From Notamacropus eugenii (taxonomy: Eukaryota; Chordata; Mammalia; Diprotodontia; Macropodidae): a stretch of DNA of 64,000 nt. The DNA is taken from assembly GCF_028372415.1 (NCBI RefSeq), contig NC_092872.1, forward strand, positions 13,482,479 through 13,546,478. Direction: 5' to 3'. The position numbers and the translations under genes were made by a program. Under the pieces are notes generated by a model that saw only the letters and a program-made list of their open reading frames with translations, had not been told where the DNA came from and made no database searches. Of the stretch, positions 7,608-62,427 are shown piece after piece; within the stretch, counting starts at the first letter, position 1; each line of letters opens with the position of its first letter.

Positions 7608-7718
7608 TTACGGCTTGTTTTTAAGAATTGCAACAACACCTGTTTTAATTGCCTCCTTTAAAACGTTTGTGATGACTTTTTTCAGTGATTCAGGGACTCC
7701 TCTTTTGGCTCGCACAGC
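7608..7718 (-). CDS. Last exon: furin site plus 30-residue cationic amphipathic peptide
   Basis: The acceptor is preceded by a pyrimidine-rich tract (ttttctattcttcatcctgcag on the minus strand). The exon encodes 36 residues and a TAA stop. It opens AVRAKR and continues into a Lys-rich segment containing ESLKKVITNVLKEAIK, ending in ILKNKP. Hydrophobic residues V/I/L/A recur every three to four positions, as in a one-sided helix. In cathelicidins the last exon encodes the antimicrobial peptide, and this exon fits that role. There is no cysteine or tryptophan. Confidence 0.78.
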   Translation of the reverse strand, partial: AVRAKRGVPESLKKVITNVLKEAIKTGVVAILKNKP

Positions 7719-8537
7719 CTGCAGGATGAAGAATAGAAAAGTTTAGTATTTTGGGAATGGTGGTAATAATTCCCATTTCTCTAGTTTTACAAACCTAGTG
7801 AGGGAGGTGTGGAAATACTATTGTCCTTATTTCCCAGATGAGGAAACTGGCTCAGAGGAGGAAGTCACCTGTTTAGAGTCACAGAGCTAATAAGCATCTA
7901 AAGTAGGACTTGAACCCAGGTCTTTGAACTCCCAGGCCAAGGTTCTAACTCCACTACCTTGCACTGCATTCTATATGTAGCAGGTGCATAACAAATGTTT
8001 GTTGTATGGGGTTGTACTCTGTACTTCAAGACAGTTCAAATCTTCCTTCTTCCCTAAACCTTCCAGCCCACAACTCTGTTTTCCTTCTTTGGACTTCTAT
8101 GTATTTTATCATTAGTGGTCATCTAGCCCTTCCCATATCCTGGTTATTTACTACCTATGAGACTTGGTGCAAGAATTTATTTGACCCAATCCCTTCATTT
8201 GAAAGATGAGGAAAACTGAGGGCTTAGAAAAAGTTAAATGAGTTGCCAAAAGAAATCCAGACAATCAGTGACAGAGTTGGGAATCAAACCAATGTCTTTG
8301 GGCTATAAAATTTAGTGTAATTTTCCACAAACAACACTTAATTGATTAATTATATCTGGTGGTGTGAGCATTTTCCCAATTGCCCCTTCCCTCTTGGCTG
8401 CTCTGCTGGATGCTCTAGGGCAAGAAATGGCATCAAGGACCACTTGCCAGGGCCACATGTCTGACCTTCACATTAGTTTCCTCCTCATTGATGGCTGTGA
8501 TTATTCACCAAAGTATTTCTCCTTTTGGGGGGGGGGG

Positions 8538-8611
<74 letters not shown>

Positions 8612-10914
8612 GAGAGAGACAGACAGAGAGACAGAGGGTGGGAGGGAGGGAGAAAGAGAGAGAGAGGGAGAGGGAGAGAGAGAGGTGAGTTTGGAAGGAG
8701 GGGAAGGGAAGTAGACAGGGGGCTTGAAATGATGGAGGAGAAGTGTGGCTCTTACCCCATTTGTTTTGAAGGCACCTGTGCTGTTCTCTGTCTTCTGGTG
8801 GTCGGTCTCTTTCGCAGTGAAATTCAGATGGTCGGGCTCTCTGGATGTGGTAGTCTAGACACCAGGAGGAGAACAAAGTGTTTGTGGCCCGTTTTACTCT
8901 CACTACAGTACAGTGGTGTATGGAGTACTGAGTACTGAGAAGCTCACCGAAGTGTGAACTATGGGATCCAGGTTCTAATCTCTACTCTGTCACTTCATAT
9001 GTTTAGGACCTCCAGTAAGTCACAGACCCAGATTTAGGAGCGTCCTCAGAGATGATTTAAGCCAATGTGAAGAGAAATGTCTTCTGCAGCCTCCCTGAGC
9101 AGAGGTCAGTCTGCTTCTGCTTAAAGACTGCCAGTGGTGGGAAAGTTTACTACCTGGTTTTTCAGTTTCCTTGTCTATATGTGGGAGGAGGGCATAATAC
9201 ATAGAGTTCTGGCCTTCCATAAATTTGGGTCCCTGTGGCTGGGGGTAGGGGTAGGGTGGCCTCCTCTAGGGAGAGGTCCTCTGCTCCAGGCACTGAAGGT
9301 GCTCAGGCTGGGGTTGAGGGTGCAGGGGCAGGGATCACCAGGCACTGAAGACTCCCTTGCTGCCTGGCCCTAAGCCCCTCGGACTGTGGAAGTGTAGAGT
9401 CCTGGAGGGGATGGAGTCACCCCGGGGAAGATGGAAGTGAGAACACTTAGGTAGAGAATCTCTACCAGCACTTATCCTGGTGCCTGACATATAGTAGGCA
9501 CTGAATAAATGTTTCTAGATTTGACTTACCTGGGTTGTGATAGAAGGAAACGCGTTAAAAAGTATGAAGAACTTGCCCAAGAACATATCGCCAATCGGGA
9601 CTGGAATAGGGACTAGAATGTGCCATTGGGAAGTATGCTAACAGAGGCCACTGGAGTGGGGCCCATAGCCACCTTCCACTTTCTATGATTTGCTGCTTTC
9701 CCATCTTGAGAGGGACAATTATTGAATTCATCTGGATCCACTAGGCAGCTGCTATGTAGGAGAAAGATCACTATGCCCTGAGGGAAGAGTAAATCTTGGG
9801 GCTTCCCCATAGCCTCTGAATATCCACCATCTTTGCCTCAGTTTTCTCATCTGTAAAAGGAAAACCTCAGACTACAAGATCTCTGAAGTTGCTTCTAGCT
9901 CTAGCCTCTCTGAGTCATCAAATTTGTCGTCAGGACAAATGTTCAAATGTTGAATCTTTTCATTACTACCTACATGAACAACGGATACTTTAATTTTCCT
10001 CTTGCAAAATAGAGGTCCATGATCCTAGGTCATTGTCCATCTCTTAGGGGGTGGATTAGGAAGATAGGTAAATGCGAGGTGTTGTGTCAACACAGAAACA
10101 CTATAGAAAAAAGTAACAGATATTCTTCCCAGGTTAGGGATTCTAATGCCTCTTGTCATTTTCCCATTTCTTACAGTACATTGAAATTGGTCATTGACTT
10201 TGGAGTCTGAGGAACTGGGGTTCAAATCCCACTTCTGACACTTATCTGAGTGCAGGATAGAGAGAGAGAGGGAGAGAGAGAAAGAAAGACAGACAGAGAC
10301 AGAGAAAGGCAGAAGGGGGAGGTATAGGGGGCAGAAGGGAGGGTTTAATGGGGAGCGAGGGAGAGAGAGGGAGTAACCCAAGATGTCACTTGAGTTCTCT
10401 GGGCCTCAGTTTCCTTGTCTGTAAGAAAAGGGGGTTTGGGCTAGAGCAAGAGTGGTGTGTCTCAGACCCCATTGACAGCCTAGGGAAGCCTCTGGACTCC
10501 TTCTGAGAATAATATTTTTAAATGCACAAAATGAACTACATAGTATTACAAAGAAAATCAAAGGTCAGTTAACATTTTTTTCTCATTCGAATTCACAGGC
10601 TTCCCTGAATTCTATCCATAGACCACTCTCACCCACAAGAATATCTTTAAGGTCCCCTCTGCCTCTAGACCTGTGATCCCAGAACTCTCTACCACAGCCC
10701 AGTTCCCAGTTTCCAGTCCCTGTTCCCCTTCTTCTTCTTGTTCCTCCTAAGTACTCACCCAGTGAGGCTTGGGCTCAGCTGTAGTTACCCCAATGGAATT
10801 TGTCTCATTAGTTTCTTCACTGAAATAAGTGACTGCACTTGTTGGGTTGTTAGTAGCTATAATCTCAGTGAGTCCCAGAAGGAGCAGAGGAAGCATGAGC
10901 CTGAAGGCTGCCAT
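7608..10914 (-). CDS. Predicted cysteine-free cathelicidin-like host-defence peptide precursor (3 exons)
   Basis: The coding exons on the plus-strand ruler are 10759-10914, 8756-8854 and 7608-7718, all joined in phase 0 with GT/AG sites, giving 121 residues. Residues 1-20 form a signal peptide (MAAFRLMLPLLLLGLTEIIA). Residues 21-85 are Thr/Ser/Asn-rich with N-glycosylation sequons at N36, N63 and N76. Residues 88-91 are RAKR, a furin-type site. Residues 92-121 form a Lys-rich amphipathic segment (about +4). Exon 2 aligns with exon 2 of the cathelicidin at 60822-60929 (FTxKET, KTEN, FKxNG), and the intron phases and final-exon design also agree, so I infer descent from a cathelicidin. The whole product has no cysteine and no exon 3 was found. 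A TATA box and a poly(A) signal bracket the gene. The likely role is a secreted membrane-active peptide. A PP3/GlyCAM-like secreted glycoprotein is the alternative, because the layout of signal, glycosylated spacer and amphipathic helix is shared. Function is untested. Confidence 0.72.
7790..7995 (-). repeat. MIR in the last intron of the minus-strand gene
   Basis: Inverted MIR text is clear: cccagatgaggaaactggctcagagg, then agtcacagagctaataagc and gaacccaggtctttgaactccc, ending in a cataacaaatgtttgttg tail. Confidence 0.8.
8200..8520. other. Intron sequence: MIR remnant, then the place where exon 3 would be expected
   Basis: Positions 8200-8320 look like a decayed inverted MIR. Positions 8340-8520 are not repetitive. 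By distance from exon 2 in the other cathelicidin (252 bp), exon 3 should lie near 8430-8503. On the minus strand a weak VKVRHVAL-like stretch is present there, but it has no good splice sites and its frame soon closes, so I do not call an exon. Confidence 0.4.
8529..8692. repeat. Long (GA)n microsatellite in an intron
   Basis: A short G run is followed by about 160 bp of almost pure GA with CAGA and GGGA variants. It generates four overlapping chance frames of 66-137 residues, which I reject as genes. Confidence 0.97.
8756..8854 (-). CDS. Middle exon homologous to cathelicidin exon 2 but lacking cysteines
   Basis: The minus strand reads a pyrimidine-rich tctcctcctggtgtctag acceptor, 33 codons, then GGG followed by the donor GTAAGAG. 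Residues include REPDHLNFTAKET, KTENSTGAFKTNG and two sequons (NFT, NST). The true cathelicidin exon 2 in this window (36 codons) reads VTFTLRETVC, SKTEN and CDFKENG at the same places. Both cysteine positions are replaced, and the segment before FK is shorter. Confidence 0.78.
8940..9150 (+). repeat. SINE/L3-like debris in intron 1
   Basis: Positions 8945-9010 look like a short tRNA-SINE remnant (gatccaggttctaatctctactctgtcac). Positions 9040-9150 contain an L3/CR1-like stretch (cagtctgcttctgcttaaagactgcc and agtggtgggaaa). Confidence 0.45.
9455..9525 (+). repeat. L2 3' tail
   Basis: The text ggtgcctgacatatagtaggcactgaataaatg is the standard L2 terminal motif. It lies in intron 1 of the minus-strand gene. 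Confidence 0.8.
9526..10190. other. Intron 1 interior, no gene seen
   Basis: This is mixed low-copy sequence with a MIR remnant at about 9820-9915 (cctcagttttctcatctgtaaaagg, then ctctgaagttgcttctagctc). Two overlapping small frames show no splice logic or recognisable domain. Confidence 0.5.
10195..10440 (+). repeat. SINE interrupted by (GA)n microsatellite
   Basis: A tRNA/CORE SINE head (ggagtctgaggaactggggttcaaatcc) is interrupted by GA-rich sequence (10258-10330). It then continues as gagttctctgggcctcagtttccttgtctg. Confidence 0.75.
10759..10914 (-). CDS. First coding exon: signal peptide and start of the Thr-rich prosegment
   Basis: ATG is the complement of 10912-10914, and the exon has 52 codons before the donor GTGAGTAC. 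Residues 1-20 have a hydrophobic core (LMLPLLLLGL) and a small residue at the cleavage site, a textbook signal peptide. Residues 21-52 hold an NET sequon and several Thr/Ser. I chose this start because it lies about 40 nt below a TATA box and immediately opens the signal peptide, as in the cathelicidin at 59107. Confidence 0.8.
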
Positions 10915-47492: not shown

Positions 47493-50275
47493 GGGGTGGA
47501 GCCAAGATGGCGGAGTAGAAAGACGCACATACACATAGCTCCGAACCCACAACCCATAGAACGGCTACAGGGAAGTAACTCACGGTGAATTCTGCACCCA
47601 CAGGCCACAGAACATTGGAGTGAGGGAGATTTCTGTTCCAGAAAGACCTGCAAACCTCTCGCGGGGGGTCCTTTGCGTTGCGGACTGGGCGCCGGGACTG
47701 GGAGCTGGGACTGGGAGCTGAGTGCAGCCCTGCTGCGGCCGGGGCACCGAGAGGTACAGATCTGAGCAGGCTTCAGGGACGGGATCTCCAGTGGCCACAC
47801 AAGTCCCTCAACCCGCAGGTGACGGGGGTCGGTGAGAGAGTCTCTTTGGCGGGTCAAGAGGGGAGTGGGGTGCCCCCATAACTCAGGCCCTCCCGGGAGG
47901 TAGAAGCTAAGAGGCAGCTGCAGACTGGGACTCCCCAAGGGGGCAGGAGCCTGGATCCATTGTGGAAGGTCTGTGCATAAACCCCCTGAGGGAACTGAGC
48001 CTGAGAGGCTGCCCTGCCCCGACCTCAGCACCTGAACTTAATCTCACACTGAATAGCAGCCCTGCCCCTGCCAAAAGCCCTAAGGCTGGAAGCAGCATTT
48101 GAATCTCAGACCCCAAAGGCTGGCTGGGAGGATCAGGAGGCGAGGTGGGTGTGAGGAGAATATTCAGAGGTCAAGTCACTGGCTGGGAAAATGCCCAGAA
48201 AAGGGAAAAGAAATAAGACTATAGAAGGTTACTTTCTTGGAGAACAGGCATTTCCTCCCTTCCTTTCTAATGAGGAAGAACAATGCTTACCATCAGGCAA
48301 AGACACAGAAATCAAGGCTTCTGTGTCCCAGCCCACCCAATGGGCTCAGGCCATGGAAGAGCTCAAAAAGAATTTTGAAAATCAAGTTAGAGAGGTAGAG
48401 GAAAAGCTGGGAATAGAAATGAGAAACATGAAGTCAAAGCATGAACAGCAGGTCAGCACCCTGCTAAAGGAAACCCAAAAAAATGTTGAAGAAAATAACA
48501 CCTTGAAAACTAGCCTAACTCGATTGGCAAAAGAGGTTCAAAAAGCCAATGAGGAGAAGAATGCTTTCAAAAGCAGAATTAGCCAGATGGAAAAGGAGAT
48601 TCAAAAGCTCACTGAAGAAAATAGTTCTTTCAGAATTAGAATGGAACAGATAGAGGCTAAGGACTTTATGAGAAAGCAAGAAATCACAGAACAAAGCGAG
48701 AAGAATGGAAAAATGGAAGATAACGTGAAATATCTCATTGGAAAAACAACTGACCTGGAAAATAGATCCAGGAGAGACAATTTAAAAATTATGGGACTAC
48801 CTGAAAGCCATGATCACAAGAAGAGCCTAGACATCATCTTTCATGAAATTATCAAGGAAAACTGCCTTGAGATTCTAGAACCAGAGGGCAAAATAAATAT
48901 TCAGGGAATCCACAGAACACCGCCTGAAAGAGATCCAAAAAGAGAAACTCCTAGGAACATTGTGGCCAAATTCCAGAGTTCCCAGGTCAAGGAGAAAATA
49001 TTGCAAGCAGCTAGAAAGAAACAATTCAAGTACTGTGGAAATACAATCAGGATAACACAAGATCTAGCAGCTTCTACATTAAGGGATCCAAGGGCATGGA
49101 ATGTGACATTTAATAAGTCAAAGGAACTAGGACTAAAAGCAAGAATCACCTACCCAGCAAAACTGACTATAATACTTCAGGGGAAAAATTGGTCTTTCAA
49201 TGAAATAGAGGATTTTCAAGCATTCTTGATGAAAAGACCAGAGCTGAAAAGAAAATTTGACCTTCAAACACAAGAATGAAGAGAACCATGAAAAGGTGAA
49301 CAGCAAAGAGAAGTCATAAGGGACTTACTAAAGTTGAACCGTTTACATTCCTACATGGAAAGACAATATTTCTAACTCTTGAAACATTTTGGTATCTGGG
49401 TACTGGGTGGGATTACACACACACACATGCACACATGCACACATACATAGAGACAGAGTGCACAGAGTGAATTGAAAAGGATGGGATCATATCTTAAAAA
49501 AAAATGAAATCAAGCAGTGAGAGAGAAATATATTGGGAGAAGAAAGGGAGAAATTGAATGGGGCAAATTATCTCTTATAAAAGAGGCAAGCAAAAGACTC
49601 ATTAGTGGAGGGATAAAGAGGGGAGGTGAGAGAAAAACATGAATTCTACTCTCATCACATTCCACTAAAGGAAAGAATAAAATGCACACTCATTTTGGTA
49701 GGAAAACCTATCTCACAATACAGGAAAGTGGGGGATAAGGGGACAAGCAGGGTGGGGGGGATGATAGAAGGGAGGGCATGGGGAGGAGAGTGCAATTCGA
49801 GGTCGACACTCATGGGGAGGGATAGGATCAAAAGAGAATAGAAGTAATGGGGGACAGGATGGGATGGAGGGAAATATAGTCAGTCTTATACAACACAACT
49901 ATTAGGGAAGTCATTTGCAAAACTACACAGATTTGGCCTATATTGAATTGCTTGCCTTCCAAAGGGGAGGGGTGGAGAGGGAGGGAGGTAAAGAAGTTGG
50001 AACTCAAAGTGTTAGGATCAACTGTCGAGTAATGTTCTTGCCACTAGGAAATAAGAAATACAGGTAAAGGGGTATAGAAAGCTATCTGCCCCTACAGGAC
50101 AAAAGAGAAGACAGAGACAAGGGCAGAGAGGGATGATAGAAGAGAGAGCAGATTGGTCATAGGGGCAATTAGAATGCTTGGTGTTTGGGGGGGGAGGGGA
50201 TAAAAGGGGAGAAAATTTGTAACCCAAAATTTTGTGAAAATGAATGTTAAAAGTTAAATAAATAAATTTAATTTA

Positions 50276-59106: not shown

Positions 59107-59314
59107 ATGAGGGGCTCAATCATGCAGGTACCCCTATTGGTGCTGGGGCTGCTCAGCCTGATTACTCCACTTGTCCATGCCCAAGATGAGAGATATAAGG
59201 ATGTGGTGAACAGAAATTCAGAAATACAGAAATACAGAAATTCAGAAATACAACAAGAACTCAGGACCAGAAAACCTCTTTCGCCTCTCAATCCTGAATC
59301 TGCAGCCTGGGGAA
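59107..59314 (+). pseudogene. CAMP: Cathelicidin exon 1: signal peptide and N-terminal cathelin, frame disturbed
   Basis: It starts MRGSIMQVPLLVLGLLSLIT, a signal peptide, then HAQDERYKDVVN, the normal start of the mature cathelin domain. After the 8-bp repeats (59211-59250) the conserved end of the exon (ENLFRLSILNLQPGE) lies in another frame. The initial frame instead ends at a TAG at 59320-59322. I chose the ATG at 59107, which is followed directly by the signal peptide. A TTG 15 nt upstream is also in frame but not needed. Confidence 0.85.
59211..59250 (+). repeat. Five-copy 8-bp tandem repeat inside a coding exon
   Basis: The units read CAGAAATT, CAGAAATA, CAGAAATA, CAGAAATT and CAGAAATA, a 40-bp array between VVN and the QKYNKNS-like segment of the cathelin N-terminus. 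Because 8 is not a multiple of 3, each unit gained or lost shifts the frame. Confidence 0.93.
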
Positions 59315-59429
59315 ATGAGTAGCATTGGGATGATGGGGGAGGTCTGCACCTGCCAAGTTGCCCTACTATGATCCCTCCACTAAAGAAAACCTTGGTCTCC
59401 CTTTGGAAGACTTTGTGATATAATGGGAA

Positions 59430-59712
59430 AAGAGAGGCAGCTGGGTGGCAGAGTGGATAGAGCAGTGACCCCAGAAGTCAAGGAGACCTGAGATCAAGTG
59501 CTCTCTCAGACACTCAGTAACTGTGGGACTTGGCAAATCATTTTACCTCTGTTTGCCTCAGTTTGCTCAACTGTGAAGTGGAGAGAATAACAGCCCCTTC
59601 TTCCTGGAGTTTTTGTGAGGATGAAATGAGATAATCATTGCAAAGCACTTTGTACATTGCTGGCATGTCGTAGTCCTTTATAAACATTGGCTATTATTAT
59701 TATTATTATTAG
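59430..59712 (+). mobile_element. tRNA/CORE SINE in cathelicidin intron 1
   Basis: The head is ggcagctgggtggcagagtggatagagc, the CORE is tgtgggacttggcaaatcattttacc, then comes atgaaatgagataatcattgcaaagc, ending in a TTA repeat. A decayed inverted MIR follows to about 59850. Confidence 0.9.
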
Positions 59713-59989
59713 AGTCAGAACATTCGAGCTCTCATTCCAGATCTGACACATTTTTCTGATTCTGAGCAAAGTATCTTCCCTCTCTGAGTTTCAGCTTTCT
59801 CATCTGTATATTGGGGATAATATATTGGGGATAATGCCTGCCCTATCTCACTGTAGCCCCTGTGAGGACTCCCCTTCCCCTGACTTTCCAATCGTGCTCC
59901 CACCTCAGAGTAGAGCTCAAGCTCCCCCTCAGAGATGCCAGGTCAGAGGGATCCCTTTTTCTCTCTCCACATACCCTGCAGCACTGCAC

Positions 59990-60130
59990 AGGGTCATAGG
60001 CTGTCAAGTTGGAAGGGACCTTAGATGTCACTGAGTTTAACCCCCTCAAATTCCAAAGTAGGAAATGGTGGTCCAGAGAAATGAAGGGCAAACAGCAGTG
60101 AGTGACAGAAATGGACACGAGTGAATGAAC
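59990..60130 (-). repeat. Inverted MIR-like fragment and GAAT simple repeat
   Basis: The text aagttggaagggaccttagatgtcac, then gaaatggtggtccagagaaatg, is MIR-like in reverse orientation. A GAATGAAT run follows at about 60122-60153. Confidence 0.55.
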
Positions 60131-60219
60131 AAATGAATGAGTGAATGAATGAAAAGGCATTTCTGCATCCAGTGATGCCCCTCTCTTTATGATTTCCTAT
60201 TTATCCTGCACACAGCTTG

Positions 60220-60380
60220 CTTTCTATGTATTCCTTTGCATGTAATTTCCCTCTCATTAATTTGTAAGCTCCTTGAGGGCAGGGGCTTTTTTTGCCTTTT
60301 TTTGGATCTCCAGTACTAACGGAGTGCCTGGCACATAGTAGGTGCTTAATAAACGTTCACTGGTTGATTGATTGCCTGAC
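60220..60380 (+). repeat. L2 3' tail in intron 1
   Basis: The text ttaatttgtaagctccttgagggcagggg, then gtgcctggcacatagtaggtgcttaataaacg, is the standard L2 terminus. Confidence 0.9.
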
Positions 60381-60639
60381 TAAGCTCTCAGAATACAAAT
60401 ATAATCAAGGTCTTTAGACTCTGAATCCAGGATTCTTGTCAAAAGTGGAACTCTCATGTGGCTCCAAACAGATTTAAGTTTGTATTGGCTTTTTTCTTTT
60501 TTTGAGGGCATTTGTCTTCCAGCAATCCTGAGATAACCCCTTGAGGACAAGAAATGTGGAAGCTGAGCACAGGGGATGCCCCCAGGTCACTCAGTAGACT
60601 CTGCTTGGAGGAATGACTGTTCTGGATGCCCCTGTTCTG

Positions 60640-60765
60640 GCGCCAGTGTGACCTTGGGCAAGTCACCTAACTTTTCTAGTTCTTAGTTTCCTCATCTAGA
60701 CATCCATGGGGTCAGACTAGATGGTGTCTAAGGCCCTTCCAGCACTAAGCAGCTTGCTGCTGGCC
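60640..60765 (+). repeat. MIR fragment before exon 2
   Basis: The text gtgaccttgggcaagtcacc, ttagtttcctcatctagac and aaggcccttccagc, the MIR core and 3' part, ends about 55 bp before exon 2. Confidence 0.85.
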
Positions 60766-60821
60766 CCAGAGGGGCTTAGAAGGGGCCTAGCTCTAAAAGA
60801 CTGTCTTGCCTTCCTCCCCAG

Positions 60822-60929
60822 AACAAAGATCCTGCTGCTCCACAACTTGTGACCTTCACCCTCAGAGAGACTGTGTGCTCCAAAACTGAAAATCGTGATC
60901 CAGATGAATGTGACTTCAAGGAAAATGGG
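60822..60929 (+). CDS. CAMP: Cathelicidin exon 2 (first cysteine pair of the cathelin domain)
   Basis: The acceptor tract ttgccttcctccccag precedes 36 codons, with donor GTGAGT after ...AATGGG. It reads NKDPAAPQLVTFTLRETVC, then SKTEN, DPDECDF and KENG. The two cysteines form the first disulphide in family members. Both ends are phase 0. It is open and typical in length. Confidence 0.95.
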
Positions 60930-61181
60930 GTGAGTGTGTCCTGGGCTGGGGAGGGAGTCTGACTGAAGGAGTCTCTTTCTGGGGATATGCACCCCTTGGG
61001 ACAGGGAGGGTTCTGAACTCTGCTTTTCTGCTGCCCTGAGGAAAGTGATTTGTCCAAGATGAGAAGCAGAAAAACTGTCCCAGGGGGCTGGCTGGGGACA
61101 ACACTTGAGCTTGTTGTCAGACTTGGCAGGGGCAGAGGTTACAGACTGACAGTCCTGAACTCTCTCTTCCACCCTTCACAG

Positions 61182-61253
61182 CTGGTGAAAGAATGCATTG
61201 GAACCATTGATCTGAATTCTTCCAGTCCCTCTGAAAGTATATCCTGTGATGGA
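61182..61253 (+). CDS. CAMP: Cathelicidin exon 3 (second cysteine pair)
   Basis: The acceptor tctctcttccacccttcacag precedes 24 codons, with donor GTAAGT. It reads LVKECIGTIDLNSS, then SESISCDG. In human CAMP the corresponding exon has LVKRCMGTV and ISCDK. The two cysteines make the second disulphide. Length and phase are normal. Confidence 0.95.
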
Positions 61254-62370
61254 GTAAGTGATGAATCCTCCTTGGGGGCCTGGGAGAAGAGCTCAAACCT
61301 CCAGTCTGCACTGGAGGTCCATGGTGCCTTCTCTCTTGGAGGCTGCTGGGATTGATCTGTAGTGAAAGGGTCTTGGGATCAACTTTGATCATTCTGCTCT
61401 CTTGCCAACTTTAGCCTCAGATTATCCTTCCTTTTCTTCCTCCAGGTTCCAATAGGGGATATAGATACAGAAGCAGGAGTATTTCTCTTTCCCCTTCACC
61501 ATCTACCTCACCCAACACCAGTTCTGGAGCTGGAAAGGTCTCTGACTTCAGAGTCCAAGGGAAAGAGGGGGAAGTAAGGAATGTCAATGGGACACAAGGG
61601 TCTAGACGTGTTTCCAGAGAATCAATCTGAAGAATTTGATTTGGAGAAAATTTCTAGTCCAACTCTCTCTCCCTCAATTTACAGAAAAGGAAACTGAGGT
61701 TCAAAGACATGAAATAGTCCTCCCCAAAAGTCATAGAGCTAAGCAATATCTGAGGTGAAACAGATCTGACTCAGTCCAACTATCTTGGTAACCCCAGGAG
61801 GTCACTGATTAGATGAAGTAGGGGAACTAGGGAAGGGTGGGCTGGTGGTATCATCAGTGACCCTGCCAGTCACTCTGAAGTGGGGGCTGTGAGGTCAGGG
61901 GTGGTCATGTCAGGGGCAGAGTCAATGTGACCTGGTCCCAGGGTGTTCCTGGAGGGTAGAAGCTTGGAAGGGGTGGGTAAGGATTTCTTGTTCTCCTCTG
62001 CATCTGCTGGGCACAGAAAGAGGAGGAGGGTGTCCTGGGAAGACTTTTTATATTTTTTCAAAACGAACATAAAGAAGCCCTTGAGGCTTTAGCTTTTTGT
62101 GTTGGGAGGAGCACTGCAGTTAGAGTAGAAGGCTGCAGATTTGGGGTTGACTCCTGGGTCTGTTACCTGCCAGCTGTGTCATGATCTGTTTCCTGTTTCC
62201 TCCTTTCCCATGGGATGGTTGTACCAGATGACTGTGGAGGGTCCTTCAAGCTCTGAGTCTCATGAAGCTCTAAGTTACTCCATTTCCCTAGTGGGCAGGT
62301 TTTTCTTCCCTCTTCAGATCAACCCCCAGAGGCCCTGGACTAAGGAGCTCTGTTTCTCTTTTCTTTACAG
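61254..62370. other. Cathelicidin intron 3
   Basis: This is a 1117-bp intron with an inverted MIR-like stretch at about 61640-61790 (tcaatttacagaaaaggaaactgagg) and a forward MIR-like stretch at about 62100-62270. I see no additional exon. Confidence 0.6.
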
Positions 62371-62427
62371 CCTGAAAAGATCAAGAGAAGACTTTTGCCC
62401 TGGATTATAGGTATATTGATAGGATGA
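62371..62427 (+). CDS. CAMP: Cathelicidin exon 4: very short cationic/hydrophobic peptide
   Basis: After the acceptor ctcttttctttacag it encodes PEKIKRRLLPWIIGILIG and a TGA stop: 18 residues against the usual 25-45. K/R residues cluster at the start, ending in a dibasic RR. The rest is LLPWIIGILI with a final glycine. That is the shape of the frog temporins (short, hydrophobic, with a Gly serving as amide donor). That parallel is an inference from shape, not homology. The exon is open and its splice site is good. Confidence 0.88.
   Translation, partial: PEKIKRRLLPWIIGILIG

Follow-up and report, generated by a model that had tools for sequence, protein, structure and literature searches.

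The gene described here lies on the minus strand of a 64,000-nt stretch of Notamacropus eugenii DNA (contig NC_092872.1); the whole stretch is called the window and the gene, which has three coding exons, the window gene. Its sequence marks it as a cathelicidin by descent, and it is probably a shortened member of the marsupial cathelicidin lineage, which would have lost the cathelin domain by steps and would release its peptide by the mechanism set out below. A further-reaching suggestion, that this is a working cathelicidin gene without a cathelin domain, in which an unfolded acidic glycosylated leader has replaced the folded carrier and a convertase would activate the peptide at RAKR, is possible but somewhat doubtful and is made tentatively.

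The gene model proposed in the initial annotation was reproduced in its main parts. The three exons are in phase 0, both introns begin with GT and end with AG, and the product has 121 residues, none of which is a cysteine in the translation. The TATA box and the poly(A) signal were found as claimed (Table 1), and the layout of signal peptide, propeptide and cationic peptide behind RAKR can be read from the sequence. The call of the signal peptide is a visual judgement and not that of a predictor.

Cathelicidin descent and the order of losses

The window protein was compared with 5.8 billion proteins and had a single match up to an E value of 10, a Trichosurus vulpecula protein named 'cathelicidin antimicrobial peptide-like' (P0001; 132 residues, 60% identity over 99% of the query, E 9.7e-37). 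P0001 has two cysteines and itself matches PF00666, the Pfam family of the classical cathelicidins, at E 6.7e-16. The same family is the only one in Pfam to pass its cut-off with the whole window protein, by a marginal 22.9 bits over residues 26-92 (E 1.1e-4; gathering cut-off 21). Exon 2 had been reported to resemble exon 2 of a second cathelicidin in the window, and this likeness stood up: the global BLOSUM62 score between the two is 40, which was reached by none of 20000 shuffles (best 31). The window contains 1306 open AG...GT pairs with a length of 27-45 codons, overlapping ones included; only four of them score above exon 2 of the window gene against this neighbour exon, and all four overlap the neighbour's own exon 2. 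It was also found that a profile built from the six relatives with at least four cysteines gives 14.0 bits for the exon-1 propeptide, 20.3 bits for exon 2 and 18.5 bits for the last exon, against a best of 10.4 bits among 2000 shuffles of the 101-residue propeptide-plus-peptide; this test is not fully independent because the relatives were gathered with the window protein in the query. For exon 2 by itself, for which a profile search had been proposed, the outcome is divided: it scores with this cathelicidin profile, whereas a Pfam scan of exon 2 alone matched no family. No PDB sequence was matched by the window protein in a phmmer search; those matched by the Dromiciops relative (P0003) and by profile A2 are the cathelin domains of protegrin-3 and human cathelicidin.

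The relatives were collected with a profile of two sequences and then with one of nine, at E cut-offs of 0.01 and 0.001 and with eight listed per round out of 322 and 2122 candidates, which gave nine relatives in total. At least four cysteines are present in six of these nine, two in the other three, and none of them shares the cysteine-free state of the window gene. The proteins with four are those of Dromiciops, Sarcophilus and Gracilinanus and two of Monodelphis, and a third Monodelphis protein (P0008) has six; the two-cysteine group consists of the database proteins of Trichosurus, Notamacropus eugenii (tammar, P0002) and koala. In the alignment, the end of exon 2 (KKNG) joins the last part directly in all three of this group, without the cathelin exon-3 part. 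By sequence, the nearest kin of the window gene are the named marsupial cathelicidin-like proteins and not its neighbour in the window.

Intron 2 holds a stretch that we read as a dead cathelin exon 3. It shows, in order, KEKY, Phe at the position of Cys 3, five bases instead of six (a frameshift), IITAINEEETNVKVR and His at the position of Cys 4; from 8524 the letters are AAG GAG AAA TAC TTT, the five bases, and ATA ATC ACA GCC ATC AAT. The part before ATA (KEKYF) was matched by eye in the reading frames. A TAA follows soon after the frame break and there is no GTRAG donor at the end. Aligned with the exon-3 part of the Dromiciops protein the stretch scores 48, and with that of Sarcophilus 46; neither score was reached in 100 shuffles (best 35 and 41), and alignment with the exon-3 parts of Gracilinanus, of two Monodelphis proteins and of the neighbour was not above chance. 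With the Dromiciops protein as the query, tblastn matches a piece of exon 1, then exon 2, the dead exon and finally the last exon, collinear on the minus strand. In the neighbour, exon 3 has 72 nt and is in phase 0, and for bats a length of 72 bp is given in PMC12483743; because such exons are in phase 0 and a multiple of three, skipping exon 3 leaves the frame intact.

On the minus strand, a long array rich in (CT)n and then 12 consecutive C stand directly before the dead exon 3, at 8527-8690. Expansion of this array may have disturbed the acceptor of exon 3.

Compared with Trichosurus, an 8-residue gap in exon 1 takes out most of cathelicidin motif 1, and in exon 2 His stands at the position of Cys 1 and Cys 2 is gone inside a 3-residue gap. 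Since the possum, tammar and koala proteins, which are without the exon-3 part, still hold the other two cysteines, parsimony suggests that exon 3 was lost first, together with Cys 3 and Cys 4, and that the exon-2 cysteines were lost later on the line of the window gene. The initial annotation had proposed that a paralogue rebuilt its prodomain. Both the altered prodomain and the cathelicidin descent are retained here, but a single-step rebuilding is not, as the losses, read by parsimony, lead from four cysteines through two to none.

Proposed mechanism, maintenance and decay

Based on these data we suggest the following course. From its own sequence and by parsimony over the relatives, the gene descends from a four-exon, four-cysteine cathelicidin; exon 3 died and dropped out of the gene model with the frame kept. 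The line of the window gene afterwards lost both cysteines of exon 2 and most of motif 1, without a speed-up in the peptide exon. The precursor would be secreted through its signal peptide, and the mildly acidic propeptide (65 residues, net charge -4, three N-glycosylation sequons at 36 NET, 63 NFT and 76 NST), unable to take the cystatin-like cathelin fold, would act as an unfolded charge-balancing leader. In the secretory pathway a furin-type convertase may then cut behind RAKR, and the freed 30-residue peptide of charge +4, probably helical, could act on microbial membranes. If the peptide is cut free this early, it would be understandable that the gene could do without a folded cathelin carrier with disulphide bonds.

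The cathelin fold is described in PMC12483743 as one helix and four strands held by disulphides. A product that is missing exon 3, both cystines and part of the first helix is not expected to adopt this fold. AlphaFold models of the relatives are of low confidence (mean pLDDT 51.8 for P0001 and 46.1 for P0003), and the Dromiciops model shows the last two strands whereas the Trichosurus model does not; we do not count these models as evidence for disorder of the propeptide because the four-cysteine control P0003 is modelled no better. RxKR is found in five of the eight aligned relatives (P0001, P0003 and P0006-P0008, from Trichosurus, Dromiciops and three opossum proteins) and not in P0002, P0004 and P0005 (tammar, koala and devil), so that cleavage by a convertase may go back a long way in these marsupials. 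For other marsupial cathelicidins, cleavage by neutrophil elastase is assumed in PMC8046226 and PMC12006171.

The rates of change differ between the carrier and the peptide exon. With Dromiciops as the outgroup, changes unique to the window gene number 15 in the propeptide, against 0 unique to Trichosurus (p 6e-5), but in the peptide exon the counts are 2 and 4 (p 0.69), a distribution that speaks against even decay. Against tammar the counts are 14 and 0 in the propeptide (p 1e-4) and 1 and 10 in the peptide exon (p 0.01). The peptide exon offers only 6 (Trichosurus) and 11 (tammar) informative columns, so that a speed-up in this exon is tested with little power. Fisher's test of signal plus propeptide against peptide exon gives p 0.004 (Trichosurus) and 4e-6 (tammar), for the Dromiciops outgroup only. 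With devil, koala and Gracilinanus as outgroups the propeptide excess lies in the same direction (p 3e-5 to 0.04); the peptide exon shows no difference with Gracilinanus (4 vs 4; 3 vs 6) and is comparable over 4 and 8 columns only with devil and koala. The later loss thus appears limited to the prodomain, with no speed-up seen in the few informative columns of the peptide exon.

Survival of the reading frame was examined by neutral simulation. When stops alone were counted, 19-33% of the runs to the same divergence remained stop-free, which does not reject neutrality. A simulation with indels was also made, for which the indel rates, an in-frame share of 25% and a kappa of 4 were assumed. Start, splice sites and frame all survived in 0.33% of 3000 runs with 5 indels per 100 substitutions, and in 0/3000 with 10 or 15; at a lower divergence (78% identity) the values are 1.8, 0.6 and 0.1%. 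The simulation favours a maintained frame, and a recent death of the gene is still compatible with it.

Several observations, including the small column numbers, the stop-free runs and the lower-divergence values just given, weigh against the proposed course and are gathered here. The PF00666 match falls to 19.6 bits, under the cut-off of 21, when residues 21-85 are taken alone, and exon 2 fails in Pfam by itself. For the relatives with two cysteines, this count comes from database gene models. In a tree of ten proteins the window gene groups with Trichosurus and Notamacropus at a support of 91/88, which is under the strict mark of the tool. In this tree its end branch has a length of 0.5, against 0.05 for Trichosurus and 0.16 for Notamacropus. 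Of the 30 columns invariant in the other eight sequences the window gene breaks 12, 7 of them inside two deletions; the other rows break 0 to 3 of 18-21 invariant columns. The fast branch and the broken columns suit a relaxed constraint. The helical moment of the predicted peptide is ordinary, since 5.6% of shuffles reach it. The devil and koala database models end in something other than this cationic peptide, and the tammar peptide (P0002), with a start chosen by us, has a net charge of -2. Finally, furin cleavage, disorder and peptide activity are steps that we infer.

The tammar, koala and devil proteins (P0002, P0004 and P0005) are each without the cationic peptide or its charge, and each in a different way. 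The group may have lost the peptide function repeatedly, or the database models may be incomplete.

One alternative explanation is early decay, in which constraint was released on the line of the window gene, the cysteines and motif 1 were lost by drift and the frame has not yet been hit. An end branch about ten times that of Trichosurus fits it, as do the broken invariant columns, the missing or uncharged peptides in the devil, koala and tammar models, the share of neutral runs that stay stop-free and a neighbouring cathelicidin that is probably broken itself. We regard this explanation as unlikely, though it is the strongest of the alternatives: the peptide exon, few as its informative columns are, shows no faster change, RAKR is kept, both deletions relative to Trichosurus are in frame, and intact start, splice sites and frame are rare in neutral runs.

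Another hypothesis is that the true transcript holds further exons, possibly with cysteines, beyond the three-exon model. The database proteins of the relatives may themselves be predictions, which leaves some room for it, but a search of intron 2 for an intact exon 3 found none, the sole exon-3-like stretch there being frameshifted and without Cys codons or a GTRAG donor, and three relatives run on past the end of exon 2 without an exon-3 part, so that we consider further exons quite improbable.

It is least probable by far that the gene belongs with GLYCAM1/PP3, lacritin and dermcidin, small secreted glycoproteins, and that the likeness of exon 2 arose by chance: the precursor is small, secreted, rich in Thr and Asn and cationic at its end, and has sequons, which would agree with this, but the sole database match of the window protein alone is named cathelicidin-like, no GLYCAM1-type family appears in Pfam up to E 10, a dead cathelin exon 3 lies in intron 2, another cathelicidin lies in the window, and the three coding exons differ from the four given for Glycam1 and VELP in PMC5054531. 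The initial annotation had named a placement of exon 2 nearer a non-cathelicidin family such as GLYCAM1/PP3 as one of the outcomes that would overturn its proposal; for the whole protein PF00666 was the only family over its cut-off. GLYCAM1/PP3, lacritin, dermcidin and Marsupial Milk 1 were rejected on the Pfam result, the relatives and the fossil exon, with no direct Glycam1 alignment made; koala MM1 adjoins TESPA1 according to PMC5054531.

Features of the gene and its surroundings

Table 1. Positions of the window gene, its predicted parts and the neighbouring cathelicidin within the 64,000-nt window.
Feature	Position	Strand	Remarks
TATA-like box TATAAATAAGG	10962-10952	minus	
Coding exon 1	10914-10759	minus	156 nt; signal peptide at about residues 1-20 (judged by eye), then start of propeptide
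Coding exon 2	8854-8756	minus	99 nt; cathelin exon 2 remnant
Dead cathelin exon 3	8524-8442	minus	inside intron 2; from alignment, tblastn and frames, partly by eye
Last coding exon	7718-7608	minus	111 nt including stop; AV, RAKR, cationic peptide of 30 residues, stop
RAKR, candidate proprotein-convertase (furin-type) site	7701-7712	minus	from alignment; enzyme putative
Predicted mature peptide GVPESLKKVITNVLKEAIKTGVVAILKNKP	7611-7700	minus	30 residues, net charge +4; predicted start after RAKR
Poly(A) signal AATAAA	7374-7369	minus	
Neighbouring cathelicidin	59107-62427	plus	exon 2 60822-60929, exon 3 61182-61253, last exon 62371-62427

The neighbouring gene had been described as a genuine cathelicidin 50 kb away. 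It does have true cathelin exons 2 and 3 in the same window, at a distance of 48 kb, and its exons 2-4 reach 68.0 bits with PF00666, but its exon 1 is frameshifted and its first donor is damaged. Exon 1 is spread over two frames by 5.4 copies of the 8-bp unit ACAGAAAT at 59210-59252, an array that sits between the start piece and the exon-1 part which continues the cathelin domain. This downstream part together with exons 2 and 3 gives 82.4 bits with PF00666, from profile position 17, and the start piece alone matched no cathelicidin model. The first donor, after GGGGAA, reads ATGAGT, with AT at 59315 instead of GT (by eye). The neighbouring cathelicidin is probably a pseudogene; alternatively, there is an assembly or allele problem.

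Elsewhere in the window, at 48155-49276 on the plus strand, an open stretch of 374 codons carries both L1 ORF1 domains (PF02994 and PF17490), which suggests that this L1 copy is fairly young.

Comparison with known cathelicidins

The purpose of the conserved cathelin domain is still debated. The relatives and the window gene together lead from four cysteines through two to none, and the dead exon is still readable, which offers a direct way to ask what role this domain plays. Should the window gene be expressed and yield a released, active peptide, the cathelin fold would be dispensable in this lineage, and latency, sorting and activity of a cathelicidin peptide would not need it. Surveys built on the four-cysteine signature could overlook such genes.

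Peel et al. (2025; PMC12006171) report 130 marsupial cathelicidins from 14 species and many partial genes, including 7 of 14 in the brushtail possum. Of the 103 cathelin domains in their study, 98% carry the cysteine motif and all carry motif 2. In the open PMC literature, as represented by titles and the starts of abstracts among the papers listed, no description of a cathelicidin lacking all four cysteines was found; the supplementary sequences of PMC12006171 may include relatives of the window gene, and the Trichosurus and tammar relatives are already named cathelicidin-like in the database.

Compared with the classical marsupial and eutherian cathelicidins, the window gene shares a remnant of the exon-2 signature, the cationic last exon and the phase-0 exons, and differs in having no cysteine, no motif 1 and three coding exons. 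In place of four cysteines in two disulphides it has none, with Phe and His at the two corresponding positions of the dead exon 3, and in place of four coding exons it has three and a fossil. Motifs PS00946 and PS00947, judged by eye on the alignment against the patterns quoted in PMC12006171 and not by a pattern scan, are absent in their full form, as the region of motif 1 is short by 8 residues and motif 2 is cut to FTAKET...FKTNG without Cys. What it does keep, as far as sequence alone can tell, is a C-terminal cationic peptide behind a cleavage site (30 residues, +4, after RAKR). As regards position in a cathelicidin cluster next to CDC25A or KLHL18, the observation made is the second, probably broken cathelicidin 48 kb away. 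Because the four cysteines are missing we call the window gene a cathelicidin-derived variant and not a classical member.

The closest proteins, Trichosurus P0001 and tammar P0002, have the same order of signal and exon-1 plus exon-2 propeptide without an exon-3 part, and P0001 also has RAKR and a cationic peptide of 30 residues; unlike the window gene both retain motif 1 and the two exon-2 cysteines, and P0002 has lost RAKR and the positive charge. The Dromiciops 'PMAP-23-like' protein (P0003) and the opossum proteins P0006-P0009, named PMAP-36-like, CAP18-like and, in the case of P0009, retinoic acid receptor responder protein 2, resemble the window gene in the signal peptide, in the region of motif 1, in exon 2 and in RxKR before the last part. 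They differ by a full cathelin domain with exon 3 and four cysteines (six in P0008). By its sequence, the window gene is the furthest point seen here in a stepwise loss of the cathelin domain.

A different comparison can be made with antimicrobial precursors that have an acidic propiece, such as those of frog skin peptides and defensins, which are secreted, carry an acidic leader and are cut at basic residues to free a cationic peptide. The window gene would work in a similar manner, but it is unrelated to them by descent, its propiece being a decayed cathelin domain.

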